A program made the translations under genes and the position numbers. Below the pieces are notes generated by a model. It worked only from the letters and a program-made list of their open reading frames with translations, did no database searches and had not been told where the DNA came from. DNA of 40,794 nt from Chloroflexota bacterium (GTDB taxonomy: Bacteria; Chloroflexota; Limnocylindria; P2-11E): NCBI GenBank assembly GCA_028876375.1, contig JAGWSB010000014.1, positions 1 through 40,794 of the forward strand, written 5' to 3'. Below, piece by piece: positions 3,917 through 8,432 of this stretch; the stretch's first letter is position 1, and the number at the start of each line of letters is the position of its first letter.

Positions 3917-5332
3917 CTAGGGCCGTGTCCCCTGATAGGCGTCTGAGACCTGGATCAACACGAACGACGGACCCCTCGCGAGGACGGGCCATCCGAGGTC
4001 GGTCGCGCGGACCGCCACGGGGTCGCGCCGGCGCACGAGGATCCAGCGGATGCCGCGGCGAGACACGACGCCGCGCCATCCGGGCCGCGCCTCGAGGACC
4101 GTCCGGTAGTCGTCCATGACGGCGCCGAGGTAGGGGGTGAGGCGGCCGTCGACGAAGACGGGCGTCGTGGGCGCGTTCCAGATGAGCCAGCCTCCCCAGT
4201 CGTACTGCGCGAACAGCCCGGGCCCCTGCGGGAGACGCGCGAGCGCGCCGACGGGAAAGCCTTCCTCGTCGACGGCGCGCGGCGCGAGAGCGACGCCCGC
4301 GACCAGGAGAACGAGCCCGGCGAGGCCGAGCGCGACGTCGGCGCCGCGCGGGATCGCCGCGCGCCGCGGCGGCGCGACCGCGGCGCCGACGGCCCCCGCG
4401 AACGCCACGCGCAGCGCGACGGGCAGCCGCTCGGCGAGGACCGGGGTCGCCGCGATCGCGAAGAGCGGGGTGTGGCGGATGGCGACGAGCGAGAGCAGGG
4501 CAAGCGGAACGACGAGGACGACGTCGCGCGCGCGGGCGCGCGGCGTGAGCGCCGCCGTCGCGACGACGAGCCCGAGGATGAGCGCCCACACCGCGCCGGC
4601 GAGGGTCGTCGGATCGGGGATGGCCCACTCCTGGATCTCGCGCGGCGGCTGGAGCAGGTGGAAGCCGGGAGCGCCGAGCGTGCCGATGCCGGCGGGCGTG
4701 AGGACGCACGACGCGACCGCGCCGGCGAGCGCGACGACGTAGCCGCGGCGGAGCGCGCGGTCGGTCGCGAGGCCCCAGGCCGCGACGAGCGCGACGACGC
4801 CGGCGCCGAGCGCGAAGGATCCGTGGACGTTCGCCCACACGACGAGGAGCGCCGCGATGGCGAAGAGCGGACGCTCCCCCGGCAGCTGCAGCAGGAGCAC
4901 GACGGCGGCGAAGAGGGCCGCGCCGAAGAGCTCGGGGCGCTCGGTCCACTCGAAGCGCGACAGGAGGATCGCCGGCAGCGCGATGGCGACCGCGACGAGC
5001 GGACGCTGCGGACGGCGTACGAGCGCCGCGGCGACGATGGCGAAGACGCACGCGGCGACCGCGACCACGCGGACCGCGAGCACGCCGAGCCATCCACCCG
5101 CGAGGTAGCCGCCGTAGAGGACGAGCTGGCCGAGCCACTGATCGGTGCTGACGGCGGCGCCGCGCGCGGTCCACGAGTACGTGTCGGCGCGTACCAGTCC
5201 GTGAGCGAGCGTGTCGCGCGCGAGCGCGAGCTGCCAGTAGAGGTCGCTGTCGCGCACCGGGAACGCCGCGCTCGACGCCGCGAGCGCGCCGGCCGCGAGC
5301 AGCGCGACCGCGACGATGGAGCGGCCCCTCAT
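3917..5332 (-). CDS. polytopic membrane protein, GT-C-like, second of two paralogues (471 aa)
   Basis: About 10-12 hydrophobic segments run from residue 7 to about 370, then a soluble C-terminal domain. The first extracytoplasmic loop has acidic D-x-D-L-Y-W followed by TYSWTARG and STDQWLGQLV, reminiscent of the first loop of GT-C glycosyltransferases, where acidic residues contribute to catalysis. The C-terminal domain carries YDWGGWLIWNAPTTPVFVDG and RLTPY. This signature is shared almost word for word with the adjacent upstream gene, showing tandem duplication. The ATG overlaps the upstream stop (ATGA). In the context of WecG- and GT4-like enzymes it probably handles lipid-linked sugars or surface glycans, but the substrate is unknown. 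Confidence 0.8.
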   Translation of the reverse strand: MRGRSIVAVALLAAGALAASSAAFPVRDSDLYWQLALARDTLAHGLVRADTYSWTARGAAVSTDQWLGQLVLYGGYLAGGWLGVLAVRVVAVAACVFAIVAAALVRRPQRPLVAVAIALPAILLSRFEWTERPELFGAALFAAVVLLLQLPGERPLFAIAALLVVWANVHGSFALGAGVVALVAAWGLATDRALRRGYVVALAGAVASCVLTPAGIGTLGAPGFHLLQPPREIQEWAIPDPTTLAGAVWALILGLVVATAALTPRARARDVVLVVPLALLSLVAIRHTPLFAIAATPVLAERLPVALRVAFAGAVGAAVAPPRRAAIPRGADVALGLAGLVLLVAGVALAPRAVDEEGFPVGALARLPQGPGLFAQYDWGGWLIWNAPTTPVFVDGRLTPYLGAVMDDYRTVLEARPGWRGVVSRRGIRWILVRRRDPVAVRATDLGWPVLARGPSFVLIQVSDAYQGTRP

Positions 5333-6864
5333 CGCGGCCGCTCGAGCAGGACGTAGCCGCTGCCCTGCGCCACCGTCGTCCAGCCGTCGTCGCGTAGGGC
5401 CTGGACGAGCGGACGGTCCGGCCGCAGCAGCGCCTGCGCCACGTTCCAGCGACGGATCGTCGCGCGCCAACCGGGGAGCACGGCGATCGCCGTTCGGTAC
5501 TGGTCGAGCACGCCGTCGGTGGCGTAGGGGAAGAGGCGGCCGTCGACGAACACGGGGCGCGTGGGTGCGTTCCAGATGAGGTAGCCGCCCCACGTGTATT
5601 CGTTGAGCAGCACTCCCGACGTGCTCCGCAGCTCGTCGAGCGCCGCGGCGGGATATGCGCTGACGTCGGGCCGGGTCGGGATCGTCGCGATGCTCAGGAG
5701 TGCGGCGACCCACATCACGAGAGCTGCGAGCACTAGCCGGCTTCTCGGCGTCGTCCTCGACGGATCGGGCTTCGCTTCCCGCCGCGGCTCACGCACAGGG
5801 TGCACAGGATCGTCACTCCTGCTCTGTCGGCTCGCCGCGGCGCCGCTCAGACGATCCGCCTCGGACGACGCCTCGCGCCGGCCGCCAAGCGAGAGCAGTC
5901 CCGGTGCGTTCGGCGTCCGATCCGTCGACGACGACGCCGAGAAGCCGGCCGCAAGATCCGACGGCAAAGAGATGAACGGCACTGCCGCGAAGCCGAACAG
6001 CGGGATGTAGCGCTGCGCGGAGAGGGCGAGCCACAGCATCGGCACGAGGACGATGGCCGCGAGGAGCGACCCGCCGCCGCGCAGGAACGAGAGCAGCGTG
6101 ACGCCGAGGACGAGGGCGAAAAGCGCGCCGAACGGCGTGAGGACGTCGACCGGCGACTCCTCGACGATGCCGCGCGTGGCGCCGGCGACGTGCGCGACGC
6201 TGCGCGCCAGCGGCAGCGCACCGGGGTCCGCCGAGACGGCGAGGGTCGCGGCGAGGGCGGCGACGAGGAACGCGCCGGCGTCCCGACGCTCGAGGAGCGC
6301 GTCGAGGGCGAAGAGCCAGAGAAGGACGACGCCGAGGGCGTATCCGGCGTGCAGATCCGACCACACGAACAGGAGCGGGACGGCCGCGACGAGCGCCCGG
6401 CGCGATCCGCCGCGCGCGGCGAGCAGCAGGTCCAGGACGACCGGGAAGAGCGCGAGCGTGAAGAGCTGCGGGCGGTCGGTCCAGACCGGCTTCGACAGGA
6501 CGAGCGCGACCGCGGCGACGGGGACGGCGACGGCGGGCGGCGCTCCGCGCAGCGCGAGGCGCGTGACGAAGAAGGCCGCGACGGCGACGAGAGCGGCGCG
6601 CAGCACGAGGAGGCCCGGCCACGACGCCGCGGCGAACACGAGATAGAGAACGACCTCGCCGAGCCACTCGCCGAGGGCGTAGGGCTCGCCGGTCGCGGTC
6701 GAGGAGAAGATGTCGACGCGCAGCACGTCGCGGTGCTCGACCATCCAGCGACCCGACGCGAGGTGCCACCACGTGTCCGGATCGCCGGCAGGGAGACCGA
6801 CCGCGAGCGCGAACGCCGCGGCCGCGACGGCGAAGGGCCACGCCTGCCGCGACAGGATCCTCAC
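5329..6864 (-). CDS. polytopic membrane protein, GT-C-like, first paralogue, carrying an in-frame insertion (511 aa)
   Basis: Same architecture as the following gene: an N-terminal helix, the loop DPDTWWHLASGRWM with DIFSSTATGEPYALGEWLGE, about ten membrane segments, then a C-terminal domain with YTWGGYLIWNAPTRPVFVDG and RLFPY. The GTG start overlaps the preceding stop (GTGA). Between the last two membrane helices, codons 306-377 form a Ser/Arg/Pro-rich hydrophilic segment missing from the paralogue. That segment is the translation of a 214-bp palindromic element with 33-bp inverted ends, and the reading frame stays open through it. Probable role is in surface glycan assembly; whether the inserted segment impairs the protein cannot be judged from sequence. 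Confidence 0.82.
   Translation of the reverse strand: MRILSRQAWPFAVAAAAFALAVGLPAGDPDTWWHLASGRWMVEHRDVLRVDIFSSTATGEPYALGEWLGEVVLYLVFAAASWPGLLVLRAALVAVAAFFVTRLALRGAPPAVAVPVAAVALVLSKPVWTDRPQLFTLALFPVVLDLLLAARGGSRRALVAAVPLLFVWSDLHAGYALGVVLLWLFALDALLERRDAGAFLVAALAATLAVSADPGALPLARSVAHVAGATRGIVEESPVDVLTPFGALFALVLGVTLLSFLRGGGSLLAAIVLVPMLWLALSAQRYIPLFGFAAVPFISLPSDLAAGFSASSSTDRTPNAPGLLSLGGRREASSEADRLSGAAASRQSRSDDPVHPVREPRREAKPDPSRTTPRSRLVLAALVMWVAALLSIATIPTRPDVSAYPAAALDELRSTSGVLLNEYTWGGYLIWNAPTRPVFVDGRLFPYATDGVLDQYRTAIAVLPGWRATIRRWNVAQALLRPDRPLVQALRDDGWTTVAQGSGYVLLERPR
5736..5768 (+). repeat. left 33-bp terminal inverted repeat
   Basis: Begins GCCGGCTTCTCGGCGTCGTC and is the reverse complement of 5917-5949 with one mismatch. 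The base pairs outside and inside the arm do not continue the symmetry, so the limits are sharp. Confidence 0.75.
5917..5949 (-). repeat. right 33-bp terminal inverted repeat
   Basis: Mirror copy of 5736-5768. Read on the minus strand (the coding strand here) it encodes A-G-F-S-A-S-S-S-T-D-R. Because of the inversion the plus strand of the left side encodes nearly the same peptide. Confidence 0.75.
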
Positions 6865-8432
6865 GGCCGCGCGGCCATGATGCAGCGCTTGTCCTCGCGC
6901 ACGGCGTAGAAGCGGATGCCGCCGTCCCGCCCGCGCGCGGTGAAGTACACGGAGCTGTCCGAGCCGTAGAGACGGTCGTACGCGCTGAAGTGCGCCGGCT
7001 CGAGGATGAGCGTCGGCGCGAGATACACGTCCGCCGCGCACGACGCCTCGTACTCGCCGTCCGCCGGCGCGACGACGGCCTCGCGGCCGGTGATCCAGGC
7101 CCAGGCCGCGGCGTCGATGGCGACGACGCCGCCCGGCGGGAGGTCCGCGGCGGCCGCCGCGCGGAGGCGGTAGACGGAGTTGAAGTCCGCGTCCCACTGG
7201 GCGAGCGCGAAGACCGAGACCCCGGCGAACGCGACGAGCGCGCCGGCGGCGGCGACGCGGAACGCCGGCCGCTCCCAGCCGGCGAAGAGATCCTGCGCGC
7301 CGACGGCCGCGAGCGCGACGGCGAACGGGAAGAACGCGGCGAGCGAGTGGAAGTAGCTGCCGCGCACGGCATGGAGCGTGAAGACGAGGCTCTCGGCGAG
7401 GTACACGACGAGCGCGAGGTACGCGAAGGCGCGCACCTCGGCGCGCCGCCAGCGGCACCGCGCCGCGACCGCGAGGGGGACGACGAGCACCAGTAGCAGC
7501 GCCATCGCGGCCGTGACGAGGTCGGCCACGAGGGCCGAGGCCTTCGCCGCGATGACCGCGGCCGGCGCGGACGCGAACGCGTCGAAGGTCGGCGCAGCGA
7601 CGGCGAAGAAGTCCTCGTAGCGCACCAGGAGCAGCGAGCGCGCGAGGAGGTCGTCGGGGAAGCCGAGCGTCTCGTTGCGCACGAGCCAGCCGAGGCCGAA
7701 CGCGAGCGCGACGGCCAGGCCGGCGGCGCCGGCGCGGCGCGTGCGCGGCCGCCCCGCGAGCCACACGAGGGCGAGGCCGAAGAGCGCGCCTTCGGCGCGC
7801 GCGAGGTAGAGGAGGCCGACGAGGATGCCCGCCGCCGCGCCCCAGCGCGCGCTGCCGGAGAGGGCGCGGGCGAAAGCGAGGAAGAAGAGCGTGCCGATGA
7901 CGGCGGCGGGCGCGAACGCGTCCGCGCTCACCCACCCCGGCGCGAGAGCGCCGCCGAGACCCGCGATCGCGCCGGCGAGGAGCGCGGTCGGGCGCTCGGC
8001 GCCGAGCCGTCGCGCCGCGAGGTAGGTGACCGGCGGGATGAGCGCGGCCACGGCGACGATCGCGAGCTGGCCCGCTCGGAAGTCCGGCAGGACGCCGCCG
8101 AGGAGCTTGACGCCGACCGCCTGCACCAATGTCGCGAGCGGCATCCAGAAGCGATGGCTGGCGACGGGCAGCGCCGCGAAGTGCGGCGCCTCGACGAAGC
8201 TCCACACGAAGTCCGCGGTGAGCCCCTGACCGTGGGCGACGCGGGACGCGACCGCTGCGTAGTAGTAGGCGTCGGTGTAGCCCGGCTCCCAGACGACGAC
8301 GAGCGAGGCGAGGCGCACGGCGAGCAGGGCGAGCGTGAGGGCGACGACGGCGAGCAGCGGGCGGCGATCGCGCCGGCGGTCGAGCGGGTAGAGGCGGCGC
8401 ACGCCGCGGGCGGCGGCCCGCCGCTCGATCAT
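6861..8432 (-). CDS. GT-C type membrane glycosyltransferase, PMT/ArnT-like (523 aa)
   Basis: An Arg-rich cytoplasmic N-terminus leads into about 11-13 membrane helices. The first periplasmic loop contains EPGYTDAYYYAAVASRVAHG, the acidic loop-1 motif typical of family 39/83-like enzymes that take sugars from polyprenyl-phosphate donors. A second loop has SHRFWMPL. The C-terminus is a soluble extracytoplasmic domain of roughly 100 residues. The ATG overlaps the PHP gene's stop (ATGA) and the stop overlaps the next gene's GTG. Together with the WecG-like and GT4 enzymes upstream it probably adds a sugar to a lipid or protein at the outer face of the membrane. Exact donor and acceptor are unknown. 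Confidence 0.8.
   Translation of the reverse strand: MIERRAAARGVRRLYPLDRRRDRRPLLAVVALTLALLAVRLASLVVVWEPGYTDAYYYAAVASRVAHGQGLTADFVWSFVEAPHFAALPVASHRFWMPLATLVQAVGVKLLGGVLPDFRAGQLAIVAVAALIPPVTYLAARRLGAERPTALLAGAIAGLGGALAPGWVSADAFAPAAVIGTLFFLAFARALSGSARWGAAAGILVGLLYLARAEGALFGLALVWLAGRPRTRRAGAAGLAVALAFGLGWLVRNETLGFPDDLLARSLLLVRYEDFFAVAAPTFDAFASAPAAVIAAKASALVADLVTAAMALLLVLVVPLAVAARCRWRRAEVRAFAYLALVVYLAESLVFTLHAVRGSYFHSLAAFFPFAVALAAVGAQDLFAGWERPAFRVAAAGALVAFAGVSVFALAQWDADFNSVYRLRAAAAADLPPGGVVAIDAAAWAWITGREAVVAPADGEYEASCAADVYLAPTLILEPAHFSAYDRLYGSDSSVYFTARGRDGGIRFYAVREDKRCIMAARP

Follow-up and report, generated by a model that had tools for sequence, protein, structure and literature searches.

The window analysed here, which is the whole 40,794-nt stretch of contig JAGWSB010000014.1 from a Chloroflexota bacterium, carries two adjacent genes for paralogous proteins, one of which hosts the palindromic repeat that is the subject of this work (Table 1). 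Searches of Pfam and NCBIfam with the host protein assigned no family. Its similarities point to GT-C glycosyltransferases, with ArnT and oligosaccharyltransferase subunits (STT3) as the best Foldseek matches, at an E value of only ~1e-3 and from a low-confidence AlphaFold2 model (mean pLDDT 60); as modelled, the protein resembles a GT-C-like membrane enzyme.

Inside this gene lies the longest and cleanest inverted repeat of the window, where nothing else is comparable. The original prediction, made from the DNA alone, had described two 33-bp arms, identical at 32 positions and separated by 148 bp, within the coding frame of a 511-aa protein. Both the arms (97% complementary) and the minus-strand open frame around them were reproduced, with an inverted-repeat score of 33 within the gene versus 17 at most in 30 dinucleotide-preserving shuffles. 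The inserted residues read AGFSASSSTD...RTTPRSRL, and the adjacent paralogue, as had been proposed, lacks these ~71 extra residues in its loop. A codon-usage scan trained on the other genes of the window scored the two flanks (5341-5736 and 5971-6885) as coding in the same frame and the stretch in between (5737-5970) as non-coding-like, as expected of a recent insert. In the AlphaFold2 model, residues 301-373 form the longest stretch with pLDDT below 50, mostly without secondary structure. Such low confidence is in part to be anticipated, as few sequences of the alignment reach this region. The insert falls in a low-confidence stretch that is free of helices from 313 to 372 and is flanked by helices 284-299 and 373-394.

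Table 1. Features of the host locus (window positions) and intragenic copies of the four repeat families; hairpin arms are written in mRNA sense.
Feature	Position	Strand	Description
Host gene	5332-6864	minus	Open frame, 511 aa, multi-helix membrane protein; stop codon 5329-5331
Adjacent paralogue	3917-5335	minus	Loop without insert; the counterpart loop in the congener G002 carries family D
Whole insert	5736-5949	minus	In frame, residues 306-377; absent from normal-loop orthologues
Family A repeat unit	5736-5891	minus	~156 bp; end-to-end alignment with C56:220-366 and C61:299-439
Hairpin 5' arm	5852-5886	minus	GGCCGGC-GCGA-GGCGTCGTCC-GAGGC-GGATCG
Hairpin 3' arm	5736-5768	minus	CCGATCC-GTCGA-GGACGACGCC-GAGAA-GCCGGC; doubles as one arm of the 33-bp inverted repeat
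Additional inverted arm	5917-5949	minus	32/33 complementary to the 3' arm
Family A, intragenic			Window site only
Family B, intragenic (four copies)			GT-C loop; second membrane protein; glutamate synthase linker; upstream of a subtilase prodomain
Family C, intragenic (two copies)			GT-C loop; galK-galU-like junction (L099), which may be intergenic
Family D, intragenic (two copies)			Paralogue loop; DinG-like helicase linker

Each of the 28 genomes in the taxonomic family encodes relatives of the host protein. Named relatives among the public genomes are metagenome assemblies that bear the label Chloroflexi bacterium. Counted from the conserved motif RH..F..A..P to EY.WGG, the loop measures 72-84 residues in insert-free orthologues, including the one from the same genus (G001), versus 131 in our genome (G000). 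This is the comparison of orthologues with and without the insert that the original prediction had proposed, and relative to these orthologues the segment is a true insertion. Three other orthologues show enlarged loops (105 residues in G004, 129 in G003 and 116 in G021), as does the G002 paralogue that carries an insert (110 residues). By inspection, each clearly enlarged loop copy in the close relatives holds a palindromic repeat, in most cases from an unrelated, species-specific family.

A genome-wide search with the segment found related DNA on two further contigs (C56 and C61), with 69% identity over ~150 bp. These two copies are 87% identical to each other and sit between the convergent 3' ends of transaldolase-like and DNA polymerase III delta-like genes (named from their translations); since their coding flanks are near-identical, we took them for one locus, apparently present in two strain versions. 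The element is oppositely oriented in the two (L002, L005), a possible sign of either an inversion polymorphism or an independent insertion. Because both copies stop at window position 5891, the repeat unit, which we call family A, is the one given in Table 1, and not the 33 + 148 + 33 bp arrangement first proposed. The outer 33-bp symmetry arises because an extra inverted arm adjoins the unit, and this arm is probably the remnant of a second, inverted copy.

Family A counts only two loci in this genome, with one intragenic copy. In the congener G004, 59 bp of the element (88% identity) adjoin a subtilase-like gene as a partial copy, and the orthologous loop of G004 shows degenerate arms in the same order, whose alignment score (112.5, with 200 shuffles reaching 105 at most) suggests a homology of modest strength. 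The earlier idea of a non-autonomous family that creates protein segments holds as far as the existence of copies in the genome and in G004 is concerned, while mobility and translation are parts of it that we only infer.

A poorly conserved loop that varies in length across this protein family might be taken for an ordinary variable stretch with chance symmetry. We consider this extremely improbable, and the additional copies already refute it: 33-bp arms exceed anything obtained by shuffling, the same DNA recurs at intergenic positions, three other repeat families sit in the same loop, and both the same-genus orthologue and the distant short-loop ones lack the segment. An artificial palindrome, created by a chimera during assembly or amplification, deserves attention as well, as these are metagenome-assembled genomes and the C56 and C61 copies lie at contig ends. 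It is nevertheless very unlikely, given that the insert continues the frame of the gene without a stop, that G004, which was assembled separately, has related arms at the same place of the orthologue, and that families B to D recur at many internal sites.

These other families were recognized because they are located in this loop. In G003 the loop contains a 60-bp near-perfect double palindrome (TGATGTGTTTCCGTGCC...GGCACGGAAACACATCA), or family B, which occurs at ~15 sites of that genome and at essentially none elsewhere in the taxonomic family. The G021 loop carries family C, a ~104-bp hairpin with 8 sites, and in G002 it is the matching loop of the adjacent paralogue that harbors family D, a ~160-bp hairpin. 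Family D has ~9 sites, with identities of 80-95%; six of these sites are full length and reach at least 91%. Judging from the sequences, no fewer than four independent insertions have struck the loop (families A, B and C, plus D in the paralogue), and the number of families B to D has to be weighed against how many loops were inspected. If ~5 genic insertions were spread uniformly over every 2 Mb of coding DNA, which is an assumed rate, ~0.01 hits would be expected in this loop over 28 genomes and two genes, versus the three additional ones seen, and the expectation would rise to ~0.1 with fifty genic insertions per genome. The GT-C loop would then be either unusually tolerant or targeted, two options that the rate estimate does not separate. 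A different motif (CGGGTGATGTCG..GG / GCGGGTGCGTCACCCG) was seen in the DinG linker of G002 (L176:1560-1665), split there by the family D core, and also in the G004 loop (L037); it is possibly a fifth palindromic family with a nested insertion.

With two loci and a single intragenic copy, neither the mobility nor the frame bias of family A can be judged alone, and in-frame bias, which the original prediction had proposed to check in other copies, was assessed by pooling family A with families B to D. The pool comprises 35 sites, and according to a simple codon scan, 8 or 9 of them are intragenic, where the coding frame runs on unbroken and contains no stop codon (Table 1). The four intragenic copies of family B share one frame of the palindrome (DVFPCQ-GT-PCQ-GTETH). 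Orthologues again lack the extra residues: glutamate synthases of G000 and G001 are without ~30 residues at the family B site, and DinG proteins of G000 and G004 without ~25 at the family D site. The other sites are mostly found between co-directional or convergent genes, and no clear divergent-promoter site was noticed among the 35. In G021, a family C copy (L099:1500-1600) falls in one uninterrupted frame that runs from a galactokinase-like to a nucleotidyltransferase (galU-like) sequence, and may have fused both frames.

Regarding their predicted architecture, families A and C follow a common layout in mRNA sense, with a stem, GCGA, a 10-bp stem, GANGA, a stem, the apex, and then a stem, GANGA, a stem, GAGAA and a final stem. 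The stem sequences differ between both families despite this common arrangement of internal loops, and family B lacks such loops. The arrangement may stem from either a shared origin or a shared constraint. A scan for paired GANGA motifs over 355 kb of DNA returned the A and C copies and one other match. Family C alone, analysed with RNAalifold on real sequences, gave a consensus hairpin with modest covariation. A covariance model (R1), with a seed alignment in which one row was hand-completed from N-containing copies and whose pair counts were excluded as evidence, recovered family C and not family A in a family-wide search, and added no new genomes. Searches with the Rfam 15 covariance models produced only chance-level matches, far below the gathering scores.

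At one locus (L103:1479-1580), the apex of family C is found within wholly different arms, which are mutually complementary, and the family D core in the DinG linker likewise sits within different arms. The arms and the core of family C seem to be exchangeable modules.

Such features invite an alternative in which the inserts function chiefly as structured RNA, or as single-stranded DNA, and act as hairpins in the mRNA. The ribosome would skip these hairpins, or they would be processed, and the encoded peptide would then be incidental or never made. Very stable predicted hairpins, the non-canonical loops (GCGA, GANGA, GANGA and GAGAA) common to A and C over differing stems, and the L103 copy with its entirely different yet complementary arms all speak for it. 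We nonetheless consider it improbable, since each of the nine intragenic copies keeps the frame and contains no stop codon, a property that neither skipping nor splicing would demand, and there is neither a match in Rfam nor any such loop in family B. A related and speculative proposal, still rather unlikely in our opinion, is that A and C belong to a single superfamily of mobile elements, either structured RNA or hairpin DNA. A machinery independent of RAYT transposases would read the internal loops and bring the elements again and again into a few protein loops, and the GT-C loop would be a true hot spot instead of a site that just tolerates insertions. The GA-loop architecture of both families offers a handle for finding the mobilising machinery.

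The feature of the window is very probably a family A hairpin repeat that was inserted in frame into a transmembrane-protein loop and forms part of a wider pattern with multiple families. Its repetition, its insertion relative to orthologues, its open frame, its predicted hairpin and the recurrence of such repeats in one loop can be read in the DNA itself; for movement in trans by an enzyme, translation and the purging of frame-breaking copies, we infer the following path. Non-autonomous hairpin repeats would be copied in trans by an enzyme, and several unrelated, species-specific families would in this way have spread, chiefly to intergenic positions and now and then, with the frame preserved, into loops and linkers. 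Insertions that break a frame or a promoter would be lost, and the survivors would be those between genes or those free of stop codons in tolerant loops and linkers. In the case of family A, a small interspersed repeat able to form a hairpin, and derived from non-coding DNA, would have landed in the loop between two transmembrane helices and survived with the frame kept and no stop codon, so that a flexible segment of ~71 residues would be translated.

As for the enzyme, the REP-associated tyrosine transposase (Y1_Tnp, PF01797) was found in 0 of 28 genomes from the taxonomic family, with controls positive in 5 of 14. No clear target-site duplication was seen in the aligned flanks. Insertion into pre-existing hairpins, a candidate mechanism that we examined through the complementarity of flanks versus swapped flanks, was not supported for family B (p ~0.8) or family D (p 0.08-0.4), and the same test gave a weak signal for family C (p 0.01-0.02, n=6).

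In-frame palindromic repeats are best known from Rickettsia and Wolbachia; REPs and MITEs located inside genes have been described in several species (PMC10969869, PMC2229807, PMC3733652). GTAG REPs have been reported from Chloroflexi, and different REPs occupy approximately the same recB site in two Xanthomonas species (PMC3733652); REP families are known from three Chloroflexota species (PMC12306157). Like the REPs tagged with GTAG or CGTC, the elements described here are short palindromes located downstream of or between genes and occasionally in coding regions, although our units are longer (60-160 bp) and no RAYT transposase accompanies them in the 28 genomes. MITEs such as ERIC, Correia/NEMIS and others are small inverted-repeat elements able to add in-frame peptides (PMC10969869, PMC2229807); our elements also have terminal inverted repeats, and no clear target-site duplication was seen in the aligned flanks, nor was a parent insertion sequence with matching ends noticed. 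The original prediction knew of no palindromic inserts of this type described for this kind of organism, and our search of an open-access library likewise turned up no account of palindromes inside Chloroflexota genes.

Several unrelated families occur in these uncultured Chloroflexota, and in four lineages one loop of this pair of enzymes has received independent insertions. Nature has thereby repeated an experiment that can tell where proteins tolerate added segments and whether the surviving inserts are neutral.

The closest comparison is that with the Rickettsia palindromic elements (RPEs) and those of Wolbachia, repeats of ~100-150 bp that fold into long stem-loops and are found both between genes and in frame in unrelated protein genes, with several families per lineage (PMC10969869, PMC2229807). 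The likeness to RPEs, already advanced in the original prediction, holds in behaviour and is set by description, not by sequence: as in Rickettsia and Wolbachia, these are interspersed repeats with long stem-loops, intergenic or intragenic, the latter always in frame and open, and absent from orthologues. Sequence homology to the Rickettsia families would not be expected across phyla. Our elements differ from RPEs in their phylum, in their high-GC uncultured hosts, in the far fewer copies found and in their repeated independent hits in one loop. By analogy, they would work like RPEs, and what appears to be new here is their Chloroflexota host and their unusual recurrent target.
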